Assembly (NCBI GenBank): GCA_020852965.1
Contig: JADYZV010000011.1
Location: 1-64,000 of the forward strand
Direction: 5' to 3'
Length of the DNA stretch: 64,000 nt
Source of the DNA: Pirellulaceae bacterium
GTDB taxonomy: Bacteria > Planctomycetota > Planctomycetia > Pirellulales > Pirellulaceae
This document shows positions 9,786 to 50,850 of this stretch, piece by piece. Within the stretch, counting starts at the first letter, position 1. Each line of letters begins with the position of its first letter. The notes under the pieces were generated by a model that saw only the letters and a list, made by a program, of their open reading frames with translations, was not told the DNA's origin and did no database searches. Position numbers and translations under genes: made by a program.

Positions 9786-10002
9786 CGTCGAACCATTTCC
9801 TATTATTGCGGTGGGGAGGAACGGCAGGTGCGGTCAAGGCATATAGTTAAGTTACGGTAGGCTTTAGGCGGGGATCAGTTACTATAACCGATTTCAGAGG
9901 GTGATTCGCGAACAAAGTTGTTTTTTTGGGACACTTCTTGGCAAACCCCGCTAAGCGAACAATCTCGCCCGACGCTCCGCCCGTTCACATATTCTCTAAT
10001 TG

Positions 10003-10230
10003 CCCCCCGGCGAGCTTGTCTCGCTGGTGAATCAGTTTTGTGCCCAGACACGGCTCTTTAGACCCCCGCGAGCTTGTCTCGCTGGTGAATCAGTTTTGTA
10101 CCCAGACACGGTTCTTTAGACCCCCGCGAGCTTGTCTCGCTGGTGAATCAGTTTTGTGCCCAGACACGGCTCTTTAGACCCCCGCGAGCTTGTCTCGCTG
10201 GTGAATCAGTTTTGTGCCTAGACACGGTTC
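10003..10230. repeat. 58-bp direct tandem repeat, about 3.8 copies
   Basis: CGAGCTTGTCTCGCTGGTGA begins at 10011, 10069, 10127 and 10185, an exact 58-bp period. Units differ at only a few positions (GTGCCC/GTACCC, GGCTC/GGTTC). Each contains a small hairpin GCGAG-CTTGT-CTCGC. There are no unique spacers, so it is not a CRISPR array. The last unit breaks off near 10230, shortly before the hairpin at 10245-10289. A single inverted unit sits at 47548-47590 beside a similar hairpin. The 9786-10002 stretch upstream holds no recognisable gene. Confidence 0.95.
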
Positions 10231-10244
10231 AGCCACCTGCGCGC

Positions 10245-10289
10245 CATCCCGCCATGATCGCCGCTGAAAGCGGCGATCATGGCGGGATG
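10245..10289. repeat. Perfect 21-bp inverted repeat (hairpin)
   Basis: Left arm 10245-10265 and right arm 10269-10289 are perfectly complementary around a GAA loop. The inner core is GATCGCCGC/GCGGCGATC, shared with the 25-bp hairpin at 47471-47524. No T-run follows, so it is unlike an intrinsic terminator. It forms the right end of the composite that begins with the 58-bp units. Confidence 0.93.
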
Positions 10290-10337
10290 ACCGACTTAAG
10301 AATTTCAAAACCGCCGCATTCTAACTGCAAAACTTCC

Positions 10338-10628
10338 TCACCCGTGAGGCAAGCTCACTGGGGGAGAGATGACCGAGCACTTGTCCACCCAGCACTCCGG
10401 CTTAGGGTCGAGCATATCTAGCTGGCTAGGTCCACCACTGAGCAATACCAACAACACCGAGCGAGCCTGCCCAAAACCGGGCGGGTGAACCGTACCAGCG
10501 TCCGCAGCAGTCGCGACGTGGTTTGCGAGCTGACTGGGGAGTACCGAACCGACGACTCCTGTCGCCGCCATGCGCAGTAGTCCACGGCGGTCGACTCCAA
10601 ATAGCGGGTCCATCATGACAGGCTCCAT
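10338..10628 (-). pseudogene. Truncated DUF1501 gene (N-terminal fragment)
   Basis: The first 80 or so codons encode a typical DUF1501 start: twin-arginine signal (DRRGLLRMAATGVVGSVLPS) then VLLVLLSGGPSQLDMLDPKPE. After DPKPE, where the family continues with A-P-x-E-x-R-G, the sequence changes to unrelated residues and stops. The other roughly 400 residues are missing; in their place are a short sequence with CTCACCCGTGAGGCAAGCTC and the hairpin/repeat composite. This indicates loss of the 3' part at a repeat junction. The ATG at 10628 is the natural start. Confidence 0.82.
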
Positions 10629-27137: not shown

Positions 27138-27268
27138 CTAGTAGTCTGTTACAGCTAAGAATTAGGGTTGAATGTAGTGGACGAGGTTACGAGTCCCATG
27201 CATCTGCCAAGCCAAACGGACTCGTAACCTCATCCACTACCCTAGAATTGAGCTGTAACAGACACTAG
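27138..27268. repeat. Hairpin element, family B, copy 1
   Basis: Outer inverted ends CTAGTAGTCTGTTACAGCT and AGCTGTAACAGACACTAG enclose inner inverted arms (GTAGTGGACGAGGTTACGAG and the near-complement from about 27219 to 27240). The whole 131 bases can fold into one long interrupted hairpin. It lies between two convergent genes, so it could act as a bidirectional terminator, though it has no T-run. Copy 2 is at 36172-36283. Confidence 0.85.
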
Positions 27269-27270
27269 GA

Positions 27271-28476
27271 TCATTTGGCCGGCCCAGGAGTTCCCGTGCT
27301 CTGTGGTGGAGCCATCTGAGAAAACAGGTCAACGGGCCAACGGGCAAGACGCTCGAAATCGCTCGGCACGGACTGCTTGAACTGCACATAAGCCTGAACC
27401 TTGCCCTTCGTGGTATAGCTCAAAGCCTCGGAGGCGACGCCGGGGGTAAAAAGGCTGTATCCTGCCAGGATGCAATCTTCCAAGTCGATGTGCAATCGTC
27501 CGGTTGGAGAGTGGCCTTGGGTGCAAAGGATGCCCGTTGAATTCCCGCCCATTTCTGGTTGCGTGAAGTTCAGTACGATCATGCGGCAGTTGCGGAAATT
27601 GGCTCGGGCGCAATGGCTGGCATAGGACATGGCGACGGCATTGTCTGGATGGACCAGAGTACAATCTTCAAAGACGGCGTGTGGATGTTCGGGCATCGCA
27701 TTCTCAGTCCCTCCCAGCAGTACGGCGGCCGTATCTCCATTCCAGTCCAGCGCCATGAAATAGCAGCCTCGAAAAACGCTCGGCTCGCCAGGGCGCACCG
27801 TTGGATAAACGACGCCGCCGCCGAATGCCCGACCGATACCCACGCAATCCTCGACCACCACGGTAAAACCTTCGCCGCTCTTGTTCGTTAGGTCCCAAAA
27901 CAGACCTGCATCGCCACCGGTGACATATAAATTGCGGATCGTCCATCGATCCCAGATAATGCTGGAGAACGTTTGCTGATTATTGCCACCATGCCAATTC
28001 TTATCCGATGCGCGAATTGAGCTCCACCAATCCCAGCTCTTGAACCCCATTTCCGGATCTCCGCTATCGATCAGCACCCAACCTTTGGCACCTGAGCCGA
28101 GGCTACCATCGCAATCGCCGATCAAAGCGTTGTAGGCTCCCGCTGCCCCTTGGTGGGCTGGGGCGAGATTCGCCTCGGCGTAGGTATCCGGCCGCACAAT
28201 GATCCGATGCCCACCTTGAACGTCCGGCACGGCATCGAGCGCACTCTGAACAGTATGGAATGCCGCCGCCCAAGAGCTTCCATCGGAGTTATCACCCAAC
28301 TTGGAGACGAACAAAGTAACCGGTTTCCGCGCACTCTCGTGTGCCACACTCTCTTGTGCCACACTCTCTTGTGCCACACTCTCTTGTGCCACACTCTCTT
28401 GTGCCTCAATAGGCTCAGTCACGATGGACACAGCCATCGCGCACACGACTCCAATCAACTTCAGTAGTATCTTCAT
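27271..28476 (-). CDS. Secreted right-handed beta-helix-like protein with AQESV repeats
   Basis: 401 residues from ATG 28476 (a second ATG sits directly upstream). A signal peptide (MKILLKLIGVVCAMAVSIVT) is followed by a low-complexity segment of four or five AQESV repeats. The body has pectate-lyase-like beta-helix features: LFVSKLGDNSDGSSWAAAFH, TVQSALDAVP, then runs such as TIRNLYVTGGDAG, VVVEDCVGIG, AVFEDCTLVHPDN and ANFRNCRMIVLN. This start (L-F-V-S-x-x-G-x-D-x-x-x-G-S) is common in surface polysaccharide-binding or -cleaving proteins. No catalytic residues can be assigned. It converges with the lipoprotein gene across element B. Confidence 0.75.
   Translation of the reverse strand: MKILLKLIGVVCAMAVSIVTEPIEAQESVAQESVAQESVAQESVAHESARKPVTLFVSKLGDNSDGSSWAAAFHTVQSALDAVPDVQGGHRIIVRPDTYAEANLAPAHQGAAGAYNALIGDCDGSLGSGAKGWVLIDSGDPEMGFKSWDWWSSIRASDKNWHGGNNQQTFSSIIWDRWTIRNLYVTGGDAGLFWDLTNKSGEGFTVVVEDCVGIGRAFGGGVVYPTVRPGEPSVFRGCYFMALDWNGDTAAVLLGGTENAMPEHPHAVFEDCTLVHPDNAVAMSYASHCARANFRNCRMIVLNFTQPEMGGNSTGILCTQGHSPTGRLHIDLEDCILAGYSLFTPGVASEALSYTTKGKVQAYVQFKQSVPSDFERLARWPVDLFSQMAPPQSTGTPGPAK
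28341..28400. repeat. Four perfect 15-bp tandem copies in coding sequence
   Basis: GTGCCACACTCTCTT is repeated four times without error at 28341, 28356, 28371 and 28386, coding AQESV on the minus strand just after the signal peptide. A degraded fifth copy gives AHESA. The 15-bp unit keeps the frame, so copy-number changes would alter linker length rather than switch the gene off. Confidence 0.95.
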
Positions 28477-36171: not shown

Positions 36172-36283
36172 GTCACAGCTAAGCAAAAGGGTTCATTGTA
36201 GTGGACGAGCTTTCGAGGCCCTGGATAGTACGACACCGCTGGGACTCGTGGCCTCGTCCACTACCCTATAAACAAGCTGTGAC
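36172..36283. repeat. Hairpin element, family B, copy 2
   Basis: GTCACAGCT at the left end pairs with AGCTGTGAC at the right, enclosing inner arms GTAGTGGACGAGC-TTTCGAGGCCC and GGGACTCGTGGCCTCGTCCA. Both inner arms match copy 1 at 27138-27268 closely. It sits 122 bp upstream of the PSCyt1 gene, in the gap 35990-36404 that otherwise holds no gene. Confidence 0.82.
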
Positions 36284-46297: not shown

Positions 46298-46896
46298 AAT
46301 CGGCGATAAAACAGACGACAGCCCCAACGAAGCCTTCCCCATCGTCGCAGCCGTTGGTCATCGGTATTGGCAGCCCGCACGGTGATGACCGCGCTGGCTG
46401 GGAGGTTGTCGAGCGATTGCGTGCAATGGACTTGAGATTTGCATCGAACCGCTTGCATAAGGCTGCGGTGCCACACGACGCGTTGGACTGGTTCGATCCA
46501 CAGACGACCACACATTTAGTCGACGCGATTGCTATCCATTCAGACCGATTGCTCCGTTTCGAGCTGGCTCGTGATCCACAAGGCAATTTGCAAACGCTGC
46601 TCACCGATCAGGACCAGGGGCGACATCCCGTAGCTTTCCCAGCATTGCGTTCGCACTCAACGCATCAGTTTGATTTGCGCTCCGTGTTGGAACTTGCCGC
46701 AGCACTCAACACACTTCCGCGGCGCATCGTGTTGTGGGCGATTCCGATCGAAATCAACGCGACGCCAACGGGGACTCTCGATTGGTCCGCCACAGACTCG
46801 AATGTCCAGCAGATAGCCGCACTTCCCCATGCCACATTAGAACGCCACATCCAGCATGCCGTGCAGCGTATTGCCCACGAGATTGCCCATGCATGA
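46294..46896 (+). CDS. Hydrogenase maturation endopeptidase (HyaD/HycI family)
   Basis: 200 residues from ATG 46294, overlapping the HydA stop as ATGA. M52-type hydrogenase proteases cut off the C-terminal tail of the large subunit after nickel insertion. The family opening is clear (LVIGIGSPHGDDRAGWEVVERL, usual G-x-G-N-x-x-x-x-D-D-x-x-G, with S in place of N). Later acidic and histidine ligands are plausible (HLVDAIAIHSD and HQFDLRSVL, the H-x-x-x-L region). The N-terminal 25 residues are a Thr/Pro/Ser-rich extension. It overlaps hypA by eight bases. Confidence 0.87.
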   Translation: MKSAIKQTTAPTKPSPSSQPLVIGIGSPHGDDRAGWEVVERLRAMDLRFASNRLHKAAVPHDALDWFDPQTTTHLVDAIAIHSDRLLRFELARDPQGNLQTLLTDQDQGRHPVAFPALRSHSTHQFDLRSVLELAAALNTLPRRIVLWAIPIEINATPTGTLDWSATDSNVQQIAALPHATLERHIQHAVQRIAHEIAHA

Positions 46897-47245
46897 ACAG
46901 TCTCTGGTCAAAGCTCTCTGTGCGCAAGTTCTAGTAGCTGCAGCACCCGTTGCCGCAGACAAGATTCGCCAAGTAAAAGTTGCCATCGGTCCCCTCTCCG
47001 GTGTCGACCCCATACTGGTTCAATCCGCCGTCGAACAAGTGGGTCCCAACTACGGCTTGACGCAATGCGAACTAACGATTGAGCATGTCGAACTCGAGGC
47101 CTTATGTCGAGACTGTCATAGTCGTTTCACGATCGAAGATTTCGTGTTCCGTTGTGCCGACTGCAAATCGTCCAAAGTCCAAGTCACGCAGGGGGACGAA
47201 TTCCAGCTATTGTCAGTAACCGTTGAAGAAATGATCAATGATTAG
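46889..47245 (+). CDS. hypA: Hydrogenase nickel-insertion protein HypA
   Basis: 118 residues starting at ATG 46889, which gives the obligatory MHEQSLVKAL (His2 is the nickel ligand). The zinc domain has the two pairs C-R-D-C and C-A-D-C (ALCRDCHSRF and FRCADCKSS). It delivers nickel to the large-subunit precursor with HypB. It is the last gene of the first block; a 615-bp gap filled by a repeat element separates it from hypB. Confidence 0.95.
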   Translation: MHEQSLVKALCAQVLVAAAPVAADKIRQVKVAIGPLSGVDPILVQSAVEQVGPNYGLTQCELTIEHVELEALCRDCHSRFTIEDFVFRCADCKSSKVQVTQGDEFQLLSVTVEEMIND

Positions 47246-47470
47246 GCGTTTTAGTGTTAGTGCTGGAAACGCTATATTCCGCGCTGTGGAAACCCCAACC
47301 ACCCCAGAGCGATAAGCTCTTCGGCAGCGTGGTATGCTTAACGAAGCGATCGATTGTTTAACCCGGATTATTCGTCGGCCGCAGGACGCTCTCGTTATCG
47401 TGTGGCCCCATGCCCGCTTGCCGGGCGTGTGCCAAAGTTTTTCGGGTAGGAATGGCGTGACGTGAACTTC

Positions 47471-47524
47471 CTTCCTTTCCGCCGCGATCGCCGCCCGTTG
47501 GCGGCGATCGCGGCGGAAAGGAAG
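47471..47524. repeat. Perfect 25-bp inverted repeat (hairpin)
   Basis: Arms 47471-47495 and 47500-47524 are fully complementary around the loop CGTT. The inner part (GATCGCCGC/GCGGCGATC) is identical to the hairpin at 10245-10289. No T-run follows on either side. Confidence 0.95.
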
Positions 47525-47547
47525 ACTGGCTTTGCAGAGGACTCGCT

Positions 47548-47590
47548 AACTACAAAACTGATTCACCAGCGAGACGAGCTCGCGGGGGTC
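47548..47590. repeat. Inverted copy of the 58-bp unit
   Basis: Read on the minus strand it contains CGCGAGCTCGTCTCGCTGGT then GAATCAGTTTTGT, matching the 10003-10230 array apart from one base in this stretch. Relative order (unit, short gap, hairpin) is the same at both loci. A further degenerate copy seems to start at about 47613. Confidence 0.88.
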
Positions 47591-47860
47591 TACGAAGCCC
47601 GGTGAACGATGCGCAAACTACAAAACTATTTCGCGAGCACATACTAGCCTTTGCACGATCCTAAGCGTGACGCTCACTAGCGCGTGGCGGCTGATACTCG
47701 CAGTCTGTTAATTCAATGATATATGCAAGTAGCGTTTCACAAACGAGTTGCGTTGAATTGGCCGTTGCATATAAATGATCCGGGTTAAACGAAGTTACCG
47801 AGTCAATGTAAATTGTTGGAAATTTCGAAAGAGTATTGAATTCAAACGCGAAAGAAAGAT

Positions 47861-48538
47861 ATGAGCACACGCACGATCCAAGTCGATCGCGATATCGCAG
47901 CCGATCGCAAACAAGCAGCCCAAGTAGCACGCGAACAATTTACGCGGCAAGGTACACTGGTCGTCAACTTGGTCTCATCACCTGGGGCCGGTAAGACTAG
48001 CCTGTTGCAAGCCACCGCGGAGTACTGGAACGGTCGGCAGCGCATGGCGGTATTGGTCGGCGACATTGCCACCAATCGCGATGCGGAGCGTTTGGCGCCG
48101 TACATGCCAGTGAAACAACTTACTACAGGAGGTGCCTGTCACTTAGAACTCGAATTGGTGCAGCGAGGGCTGAAGCAGTTGCCTGAAGTTGACTATGAGT
48201 TTCTGTTCATCGAGAACATTGGTAATTTGGTCTGTCCGGCTTCGCACGATCTCGCTGAGCACTTACGCGTGGTGTTGGTCAGTACGACCGAAGGAGACGA
48301 CAAGCCCGGCAAGTACCCTAAAATGTTCCGAACGAGTCAAGCGATGCTTATTTCAAAACTCGACTTGCTCCCCTACGTCCCTTTTTCAGTCGCAGCGGTC
48401 ATTGAAGATGCGCGAACGATCCAGGGAGATATAGAGGTCATGCAAGTCTGCGCACTTACCGGCACTGGTATAGAGACTTGGTGCGAATGGCTCGACCAGC
48501 AACGCCAGCAACTCCTCGTGAAAGGGGCTAGCGTTTAG
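47861..48538 (+). CDS. hypB: Hydrogenase accessory GTPase HypB
   Basis: 225 residues of the HypB SIMIBI GTPase family, which powers nickel delivery with HypA. The P-loop is VNLVSSPGAGKTSLL (about 35-49), then VGDIATNRDAERL, GGACHLELELV with the metal-site Cys-His, FIENIGNLVCPASHDL, and SKLDLLPYVPF, where the usual N-K-x-D guanine motif reads S-K-L-D. The histidine-rich nickel-storage N-terminus of some HypB proteins is absent. It lies eight bases upstream of hypF. Confidence 0.95.
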   Translation: MSTRTIQVDRDIAADRKQAAQVAREQFTRQGTLVVNLVSSPGAGKTSLLQATAEYWNGRQRMAVLVGDIATNRDAERLAPYMPVKQLTTGGACHLELELVQRGLKQLPEVDYEFLFIENIGNLVCPASHDLAEHLRVVLVSTTEGDDKPGKYPKMFRTSQAMLISKLDLLPYVPFSVAAVIEDARTIQGDIEVMQVCALTGTGIETWCEWLDQQRQQLLVKGASV

Positions 48539-48546
48539 TTGATCCC

Positions 48547-50850
48547 ATGCAAGCTTCAACCACAACACCTGTAGTCGTTTGCAGCAAACTACTGTTGCGA
48601 GGGAGCGTGCAAGGTTGCGGAATTCGCCCCACCATCGCGAGAATTGCAACATCCAATGCACTGAGGGGTGACGTACGCAATAGCCAGGCGGGCGTCGAAA
48701 TCACACTCTACGGGGAACACTCATCGATCGCTAGTTTTTGCACGGCACTGCGTGAGAGGACGAGCGGCTCACTTCAAATGCTGAACGAAAGCCTGGCGAG
48801 CGGTGAGCTAACGCCTGAGGACTTTCAGATTGTGTCGAGCGACAATGATGGAGTCGTCGACGCCATCATTCCACTCGACCTGGTGACCTGCCGTGATTGC
48901 TTAAATGAAGTAGCAACTCCAGGTAATCGACGGTTTGGCTACGCCCTCAATAGCTGTGCCCAGTGTGGTCCTCGCTATTCCATTCTACGAAGCATGCCCT
49001 ACGATCGTTGCCGCACCAGCTTGAGCGGCTTTCCAATGTGTGACGATTGCCAGCAGGAGTTTGGCGACGCAGCGCATCGTCGATTTCATGCACAGAACAA
49101 TTGTTGTCCTGTCTGCGGACCGCAGATTTGGCTTGCATCCCCCGCAACTGATGCAGCCGCAGTCGCAGGAAGTCTCGCGCTCGACGCGGTGGCCGATGCC
49201 ATTGGTCACGGGCAGATCGTGGCGATCAAAGGCGTTGGAGGTTACCAATTGGTATGTGACGCCACGCGCGACGAGAGCGTATTGCGACTCAGGCAGAGGA
49301 AACGCCGAGCGTCCAAGCCGCTTGCGTTGATGGTTGGCTCGCTGGAGACCGCGCGGAATATCGCGATGCTCGACAAGCTTGAATGCGAGGCGTTGTGCCA
49401 CCCAGCAGGTCCAATCGTAATCGTCCGATCCAAACTCGCGGAACCGATGGCGGCGTGCATTCACCCGGGCCTAGCCTGGGTGGGAGTGATGCTTCCGACC
49501 ACGGCAATGCACGCGATGTTGATCCAGCGTCTGAAGCGGCCTCTCGTGGTTACGAGCGGCAATATCGAAGGGGAGCCGATCGAGATGGATGCGGAAGCTG
49601 CCGAGTTGCGACTAGCTGGCGTCGCTGACTGTTTCTTGCATCACGATCGCCCCATCCTCCGCCCGATCGACGACAGTGTGGTACGCTGCATGGCGGGAAG
49701 TACGGTCACCCTGCGCGCCGCCCGTGGACTGGCTCCGATGTCCGTGGAAACTAACTTATCTTCCAGCTCTTGCGTGGCCGTCGGAGGGGAACAGAAGTCA
49801 GCGATTGCACTATCGAATGGAGTTCGCACCTATCTCGGGCCGCATCAAGGTGAGCTTGATACGCTGCGCAGTCGCGAACGATTTGCCGAACAGTATCAAG
49901 CGCTTACGGAGCTGATAGGTGTTGAGACGAACCTATTCGCCTGCGATACGCATCCTGGATATTTTGCTACGAACTATGTTGCGGGCATTCCTGACGCTAT
50001 GCCGACGACAGTTCAACATCATCATGCGCACATCGCGGCGGCAATGGCCGAGCATGGATGGTTGGATCGACAAGTGCTTGGTTTTGCTTGCGACGGTACG
50101 GGCCTGGGAGCAGACAACACAGTTTGGGGGGGCGAAGTACTTTTGGCAACGGCTCACACCTATCAGCGAGTCGCTCACCTGCTCCGTTTTCGGCTGGCCG
50201 GAGGCGAGGCGGCCATTCGCGAGCCATGGCGAGTGGCGGTGGCACTGCTCAGCGACTGTGGGTATGACATCGAACAAATTGCATCGTGGCTGCATCGACC
50301 GGAAGAAACCATCCGGGCTGTACTGGGTGTACTGGCTAGCTCAACCGTTGGATTGGCTCCGGTCACCAGCAGTGTAGGTCGTTTGTTCGACGGGGTCGCC
50401 GTCTTGGTCGAATCATTAAGCGATGCGACTGCCGCCGCCAAAGTCACCTTCGAAGGTGAAGCTGCGATGAGACTCGAGTCGATGTGCACCACTAGCGAAA
50501 GGGGACAGTATACAATGCGGCTGACCGATGACGTACCAAGACAAATCGATTGGCGACCGATGCTGAGGAACATGGTTGACGACTTGCAATCTCGCGTCCC
50601 GGCAGGAGTGATCGCCATGCGGTTTCATCGTGGCCTAGCCAATTGCATACGACAGCTAGCCACGCAGTACCCTGAGCTACCTGTTGTGTTGTGCGGCGGC
50701 GTCTTTCAAAACCGCGTGCTCGTGGAGCTGGTGGCAGAGACGCTCGAAGGAAGAAGGGCCGATTCGCTTGGAATACCAGGTAGAGTTCCACCCAATGATG
50801 GCGGGTTGGCACTCGGGCAGCTTGTTGTCGCACATTTACAAAGGATATAG
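48547..50850 (+). CDS. hypF: Carbamoyltransferase HypF
   Basis: 767 residues, the usual full length. HypF makes the thiocarbamate from carbamoyl phosphate that becomes the cyanide ligands of the Ni-Fe site. Domains in order: acylphosphatase (LLRGSVQGCGIRPTIARIA, about 15-100), two zinc-finger blocks (VTCRDCLNEV with SCAQCGPRYS, and MCDDCQQEF with CCPVCGP), a YrdC domain (IVAIKGVGGYQLVCDA, RRASKPLALMV), and a Kae1-like transferase domain (VQHHHAHIAAAMAEHG, GFACDGTGLGADNTVWGGEV, VVLCGGVFQNRVL). It is followed by hypC after a three-base gap. Confidence 0.96.
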   Translation: MQASTTTPVVVCSKLLLRGSVQGCGIRPTIARIATSNALRGDVRNSQAGVEITLYGEHSSIASFCTALRERTSGSLQMLNESLASGELTPEDFQIVSSDNDGVVDAIIPLDLVTCRDCLNEVATPGNRRFGYALNSCAQCGPRYSILRSMPYDRCRTSLSGFPMCDDCQQEFGDAAHRRFHAQNNCCPVCGPQIWLASPATDAAAVAGSLALDAVADAIGHGQIVAIKGVGGYQLVCDATRDESVLRLRQRKRRASKPLALMVGSLETARNIAMLDKLECEALCHPAGPIVIVRSKLAEPMAACIHPGLAWVGVMLPTTAMHAMLIQRLKRPLVVTSGNIEGEPIEMDAEAAELRLAGVADCFLHHDRPILRPIDDSVVRCMAGSTVTLRAARGLAPMSVETNLSSSSCVAVGGEQKSAIALSNGVRTYLGPHQGELDTLRSRERFAEQYQALTELIGVETNLFACDTHPGYFATNYVAGIPDAMPTTVQHHHAHIAAAMAEHGWLDRQVLGFACDGTGLGADNTVWGGEVLLATAHTYQRVAHLLRFRLAGGEAAIREPWRVAVALLSDCGYDIEQIASWLHRPEETIRAVLGVLASSTVGLAPVTSSVGRLFDGVAVLVESLSDATAAAKVTFEGEAAMRLESMCTTSERGQYTMRLTDDVPRQIDWRPMLRNMVDDLQSRVPAGVIAMRFHRGLANCIRQLATQYPELPVVLCGGVFQNRVLVELVAETLEGRRADSLGIPGRVPPNDGGLALGQLVVAHLQRI

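Follow-up and report, generated by a model that had tools for sequence, protein, structure and literature searches.

A dispersed REPIN-like element built around a long palindrome in a Pirellulaceae genome, and a candidate fused Y1 transposase associated with it

We analysed a 64,000-nucleotide stretch of DNA from a Pirellulaceae bacterium (hereafter the window) and found in it two copies of an element in which stem-loop end units of two kinds (A and B) stand on either side of a long palindrome. Together with further copies and genes elsewhere in the genome, these copies probably represent a dispersed, non-autonomous REPIN-like element with a strong central palindrome, moved by a Y1 enzyme that looks like a fusion with a composite active site.

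Two copies of the element in the window

Element 1 spans approximately positions 10002-10366 and begins with four A units on the plus strand, at 10002-10047 (outermost, with a diverged start; 53.4 bits with the A-unit covariance model R1), 10061-10105 (67.6 bits), 10119-10163 (66.1 bits) and 10177-10221 (innermost; 69.6 bits). A first-pass annotation had reported a 58-bp tandem array here, and Tandem Repeats Finder returned the same (10005-10227, period 58, 3.8 copies, 96% matches). The perfect 21-bp hairpin that it placed next was likewise recovered at 10245-10289, with 100% complementary arms and a 3-nt loop, at a distance from the array that is 17 nt by coordinates instead of the 14 bases given. 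The locus extends past the hairpin into an inverted unit on the minus strand (10321-10365), which closes the element and is A-like by score (R1 46.4 bits; 30.7 bits with R2, the B-unit model) in the position of a B unit. The downstream end of a minus-strand ORF (10338-10628) runs into the element; this ORF is an apparent remnant of a DUF1501 gene, matching the first 24 of 390 profile positions with 20.5 bits, under the family cut-off of 27.

Element 2 lies on the minus strand at approximately 47404-47590 and consists of an inward-facing B unit at 47404-47448 (plus strand, R2 62.2 bits), a central perfect hairpin at 47471-47524 (25-bp arms, 4-nt loop) and an A unit at 47546-47590 (minus strand, R1 70.3 bits). 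The hairpin and the minus-strand unit had been described at 47471-47590 as a second copy with the same order, which is right as far as it goes, but the far inverted unit was overlooked here as at locus 1, leaving two of the three parts in each description. The stem core said to be common to both loci is indeed shared but longer than the reported nine bases, reading CCGCC-NN-GATCGCCGC in both by eye; the two stem positions that differ between the loci change on both arms (by eye), in keeping with the claimed co-variation. Unit matches numbered five in the window vs none in any of 100 dinucleotide shuffles. Upon folding, locus 1 resembled a copy from a second genus that makes one long hairpin (G030, see below), and the ends of locus 2 folded separately.

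Element 2 is located between the first two of a series of ORFs resembling hypA, hypB and hypF (46856-50850; hydrogenase maturation; names given by eye). The window also contains a 15-bp tandem repeat (28332-28405, 4.9 copies) and another inverted-repeat motif, GTAGTGGACGAG...CTCGTCCACTAC, present twice (27174-27240 and 36198-36264), the start of which also adjoins a hairpin element on contig C9. Another dispersed repeat, distinct from the element and made up of GTTTAACCCGGATTATT and the sequence downstream of it, occurs for instance at 47356 and 47774; a 1.13-Mb sample of the genome has 14 copies at up to 2 mismatches, four of which have an A or B unit within 300 bp.

Anatomy of the element across the genome

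We reconstructed the anatomy from a sample of 1.13 of the 8.37 Mb of the genome, comprising eight contigs with the window included. A complete copy contains, in this order, end units (A), a spacer, a long hairpin, a spacer and inverted end units (B), and its length is about 190 bp where the end units are single and greater where they form arrays. Consensus sequences were derived from 20 aligned A units (GACCCCnGCGAGCTTGCCTCGCTGGTGAATCAGTTTTGTAGCTAG) and 18 aligned B units (GGCCCCnnGCCAGCTTGCCTGGCAGGAGCCAAAGTTTTGnAGGTA); as the R1 and R2 models find each other's sites, the two units are related. In the stems, 91.9% of A cells and 92.9% of B cells were paired, a level reached in none of 500 shuffles; 2 of the 8 pairs in A and 4 of the 7 in B change on both sides, and one A pair is open in 11 of the 20 units. 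The stem foot in the consensus is GACC/GGCC (TTCA/GCTC on the other strand), followed by TAG or TA about 18 nt past the stem. Neither consensus carries GTAG or CGTC at the 5' stem foot, and CnGA is absent from the position directly at the foot in the units of this genome. Neighbouring like units are spaced 35-75 bp apart, and this variation suggests that the arrays probably grew locally after insertion.

The ends begin with GACCCC/GGCCCC in inverted orientation, as might be expected of a MITE of a double-strand (DDE) transposon with terminal inverted repeats rich in stem-loops. We regard such an origin as highly improbable: the end stems covary internally, many ends are arrays of units, and the gene found with units in its flanks (see below) encodes a Y1 transposase.

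Over the whole 8.37-Mb genome, the A-unit pattern yielded 103 matches at up to 3 mismatches vs 0 for the reversed pattern, the R1 model at least 154 matches (a few possibly being B units), and the hairpin core with its loop 10 places. Perfect hairpins (arm of at least 14, loop of at most 8) were present 19 times in the 1.13-Mb sample; in one block-shuffled control the longest arm was 12, seen once. A similar core was found in 17 of them (two with GCCAC and one with GCCGG replacing GCCGC), with arms of 16-31 bp, and central stems that differ in sequence still pair. Units adjoined all 17, on both sides in 16; the remaining two hairpins had no units nearby.

A tolerant scan of the same sample produced 56 clusters, 7 with a hairpin alone, 20 with units in one direction and 29 with units in both directions. 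Every one of the 29 two-sided clusters faced inward, and A stood opposite B in 27, the two exceptions (one being window locus 1) having A-type units on both sides. The central hairpin was perfect in 16 of the 29 gaps (perfect hairpins having been selected as such), near-perfect in 2, decayed in 4 and lacking in one full-length gap and six short ones of 17-54 nt. Across the 17 clusters to which the tolerant scan assigned a hairpin, the A-B gap measured 88-127 nt.

The 20 one-direction clusters could suggest that unit arrays and hairpins are independent repeats coinciding at few sites. With units at 17 of 17 family hairpins, an invariant order (29/29) and so narrow a range of A-B gaps, we consider that there is practically no chance of this, and it is refuted for the hairpin within the 1.13 Mb examined. 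Independence, which the first-pass annotation had named as the outcome that would count against it, is seen for none of the 17 perfect family hairpins in the 1.13 Mb and is seen in part for the unit, given the 20 one-directional clusters among 49 with units and the six two-sided ones with a short gap and no hairpin. Its proposal of one composite element with fixed order and co-changing arms, dispersed in the genome, is supported.

Dispersal and genomic setting

In one subfamily, four copies of a common element have unrelated outer flanks, and one of these copies is without the hairpin and has a short repeat, seen by eye, at the junction. Common sequence continues past the units over about 60-70 bp on the left (three copies) and 45-50 bp on the right (all four), so that the moving piece may exceed the A-to-B interval. 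Using rough ORF calls, we assigned 34 of the 49 unit clusters to intergenic regions and 15 to the inside of ORFs; the intergenic ones comprised 16 convergent, 16 tandem and 2 divergent cases, vs 21%, 54% and 25%, respectively, for random intergenic points.

The enrichment between convergent genes, as far as these rough calls go, and the very stable stems (calculated with DNA parameters) would fit a hairpin that serves as a transcription terminator or RNA-processing signal, with the units as accessory RNA structures for gene expression. We find this quite improbable. No T tract was found within 3 nt of the stem in any of the 16 hairpins checked (of 17), on which ground the terminator reading was rejected and the earlier suggestion of a transcribed element finds no support; the window had no Rfam match at gathering thresholds except a tRNA; the flanks of dispersed copies are unrelated; and scarcity in divergent regions (2/34) is also expected of any insertion that disturbs promoters.

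We then scanned 15 genomes of the genus with the R1 model, scoring 150 candidate stretches per genome. At least 4 had a match, with at least 154 in the own genome and at least 5, 2 and 1 in the others, and the A unit thus appears nearly private to its own genome among the matches listed from the 15.

A fused Y1 transposase gene with units in its flanks

The genome contains seven Y1_Tnp loci. A and B units occur in the flanks of one of them, on contig C169, where B>...<A pairs lie on both sides of the gene (R1 up to 44.6 bits, R2 up to 41.4 bits); the flanks of the other six gave no R1 or R2 match at E 0.1. The proximity to a recombinase or RAYT gene that the first-pass annotation had proposed to check for is therefore found for a Y1 transposase gene with units on both sides, but its product (P0001) looks like a fused two-domain protein. 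The units beside the gene are related to the abundant ones but have diverged from them, and no giant hairpin was seen between them. This was the one fused gene found in the genome, and P0001 is likely the cognate enzyme of the elements.

Alternatively, the elements could be REPINs moved by another Y1 protein, such as the RAYT-like one on contig C119, the C169 gene being a chance carrier or a domesticated relic. The six other Y1_Tnp loci provide candidates: two loci match the NCBIfam REP-associated model, if weakly (46 and 44.9 bits against a cut-off of 80), inverted flank words of their own occur at L103 (14 nt) and L100 (33 nt), and the units of the fused gene are the diverged ones. However, the flanks of these six loci yielded neither A nor B units (the 33-nt inverted match at L100 comes without either), and relatives of the fused gene in other genomes lie between stem-loop repeats of their own, which makes this alternative unlikely in our view. 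Separately, we observed that the Y1 transposase gene at L100, on contig C48 of the own genome, adjoins a long simple-sequence repeat array that reads as repetitive ORFs.

Relatives of the fused gene were present in 8 of 60 related genomes, the own one included. In a phylum sample of 392 genomes, the family profile had some match in at least 83 and a nearly full-length one in at least 4 (own included), with at most six candidates scored per genome. A scan of further genomes with one protein returned 3 loci in two Planctomycetota MAGs, adding one relative. Inspected by eye, fused genes are surrounded by stem-loop repeats, and these vary in sequence between genomes. R1 and R2 also matched fused-gene flanks elsewhere, clearly at L108, L111, L124 and L125 and weakly at L114, L121 and L122. 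Counting common flank words of at least 20 nt in either orientation, and leaving out the partial gene L108, we obtained 10 of 13 fused-gene loci vs 2 of 500 random ORFs (400-bp flanks), and 2 of 26 single-domain Y1 loci (600-bp flanks). The long common flank word at the C169 locus is direct (81 nt, with only 8 nt inverted). L125 is the weakest fused locus, with a word of 12 nt that 17 of the 500 random ORFs also reach.

Two halves of the enzyme with split motifs

We assembled a set of 10 full-length family members of 257-286 amino acids, including P0001. Pfam profiles matched P0001 in one stretch at E 0.1 and in two at E 1. The PF01797 and NF033573 profiles both matched all 10 members at E 0.1; P0001 scored 39.1 bits with the former (cut-off 23) and 33.9 bits with the latter, under its cut-off of 55. 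The TnpAREP profile NF047646 did not match P0001 at E 1 and matched 4 of the 10 members at E 0.1 (best 1.2e-4).

Four residues are invariant in all 10 members, Y117 and Q121 in the N-terminal half and H208 and H210 in the C-terminal half, and the family motifs read Y---Q and DHxH/NHxH/EHxH. In each member, the N-terminal half keeps the catalytic-type Tyr/Gln and misses the HUH motif at the aligned place, and the C-terminal half keeps HUH and misses Tyr/Gln by alignment. A profile of the N-terminal halves matched residues 9-138 of IS608 TnpA (E 5.6e-6), with the HUH stretch replaced and YxxxQ kept; a profile of the C-terminal halves matched residues 5-118 of 2f4f (E 1.8e-8), with DHxH kept and the match ending before the Tyr helix. 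An EYD/SYN-type tyrosine is present in the C-terminal half of 7 of the 10 members, off the catalytic place by alignment; a C-terminal tyrosine, but no Gln, is retained in the deeper members L114 and L126; and at other places in several members, scattered HxH or Y...Q patterns are present but not conserved. Direct comparison of the N- and C-terminal profiles gave no signal, and it was replaced by the matching of halves to solved Y1 proteins. A structure prediction from two sequences was poor (pLDDT 49.8, pTM 0.40); it agrees with the order of helices and strands.

The enzyme is Y1 by profile and yet not a usual IS200/IS605 transposase, given that neither half holds both motifs. In IS608-type enzymes the active sites have a trans arrangement, each taking its Tyr from the partner. 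The simplest reading of the motif distribution is that two fused domains would act as a pseudo-dimer that has a single composite active site. A literature search over a limited paper collection returned no description of a fused two-domain Y1 enzyme.

The hairpin architecture in other genomes

In the second genus (G030), we found 19 matches with the unit adjoining the fused gene, and in all 5 complete unit pairs the central stem spans 22-25 positions and has no more than one mismatch. A unit-hairpin-unit element lies alongside the fused gene itself. The ends of the copy that was folded are complementary, making the whole element one long hairpin, as in REPINs. Two loci of this genome (L156 and L164) have the same flanks and opposite loops, TTC vs GAA, which suggests that the palindrome flipped relative to its surroundings.

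Among other genomes with a fused gene, G173 has a single unit>hairpin<unit arrangement, in which the hairpin is branched, alongside that gene, and the rest of its copies are few and mostly solitary; the units of G009 are also few and mostly solitary, and G120 has 2 matches. The giant hairpin is clear in two genera and is not general, and we dropped the idea that hairpin elements accompany the fused gene in all genomes. In most relatives, an identical unit is found on both sides of the gene (by eye). This weakens the case for two half-enzymes reading two different ends, and A/B ends as a general property of fused enzymes were dropped for the same reason.

Proposed mechanism

We propose that the two related, inward-facing end units and the long palindrome that they flank would act together when the element is exposed as single-stranded DNA, for example on the lagging-strand template. 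The central palindrome would snap shut first, bringing both ends of the element side by side, and a Y1 (IS200/IS605-like) transposase would bind the end stem-loops and cut near the conserved TAG about 18 nt past each stem, after which the element would be excised or copied to another place. In the own genome this enzyme would be P0001, its N-terminal half giving the tyrosine and its C-terminal half the HUH metal site, so that a single polypeptide would work as a pseudo-dimer. Local tandem duplication of an end with adjoining DNA may produce the arrays of end units, and hairpins may be lost through deletion.

We advance a broader reading tentatively, rating its chances somewhat below even: the family may constitute a new planctomycete Y1 branch, a dimer frozen in one chain whose two sites were reduced to one (N-terminal Tyr plus C-terminal HUH), and in which, in at least this lineage, A and B ends diverged around a giant palindrome and could be distinguished by an asymmetric enzyme. 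If true, a natural fusion of one Tyr and one HUH would reveal which composite active site suffices for this chemistry, and would make the IS608-type trans arrangement testable within one chain. The giant central palindromes are a natural test of the survival, flipping and loss of long perfect hairpins in a bacterial genome.

Comparison with known systems

REPINs are inverted doublets of REP sequences in which the spacer can form a hairpin and shows compensatory changes (Bertels and Rainey, 2011, PMC3116915), and clusters in which REPs are tandemly reiterated with flanking DNA have also been described (PMC3733652). To call the element undescribed, as the first-pass annotation did, was too strong for its class, since REPINs are known (PMC3116915). 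It resembles them as an inverted stem-loop doublet whose hairpin spacer shows compensatory changes, which forms clusters and dispersed copies and is linked to a Y1 gene (PMC3116915), and it has most of what defines a REPIN, the GTAG foot excepted. What sets it apart is that its two end units can be distinguished (A and B), that a long palindrome occupies the spacer (in 17 cases with perfect arms of 16-31 bp), that the stem foot has no GTAG and that the transposase looks like a two-domain fusion. How REPs and REPINs move is described as poorly understood (PMC8266576).

Y1 genes located among high-copy secondary structures are a feature shared with TnpAREP/REPtrons and with class 3 TnpA (PMC6006769, PMC8266576). 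Class 3 was reported from Planctomycetes, Acidobacteria and Proteobacteria, with atypical structures in Planctomycetes (Quentin et al., 2018, PMC6006769). Its proteins are given there as single-domain, with a median of 178 amino acids, NHVH and Y----Q motifs and a CnGA foot; 5 of its 10 first members are without conserved HuH or Y motifs, and unexpectedly long proteins were discarded in that study as fusions or annotation errors (PMC6006769). The fused family differs from class 3 in its length of 257-286 amino acids and in carrying Y---Q and HxH in separate halves. PATE (palindrome-associated transposable element), an archaeal element of Haloquadratum, is similar by name alone, as a small element that carries a palindrome.

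The TnpA proteins of the IS200/IS605 family have one domain and function as dimers (PMC6006769). Those of IS608, ISDra2 and relatives (PDB 2a6m, 2vhg, 2xm3, 2f4f) are similar to the enzyme described here in that each half of it has a profile match among them and HUH, Tyr and Gln are all present in the chain; they differ from it in that here two domains are apparently fused, with the catalytic residues split between the halves.
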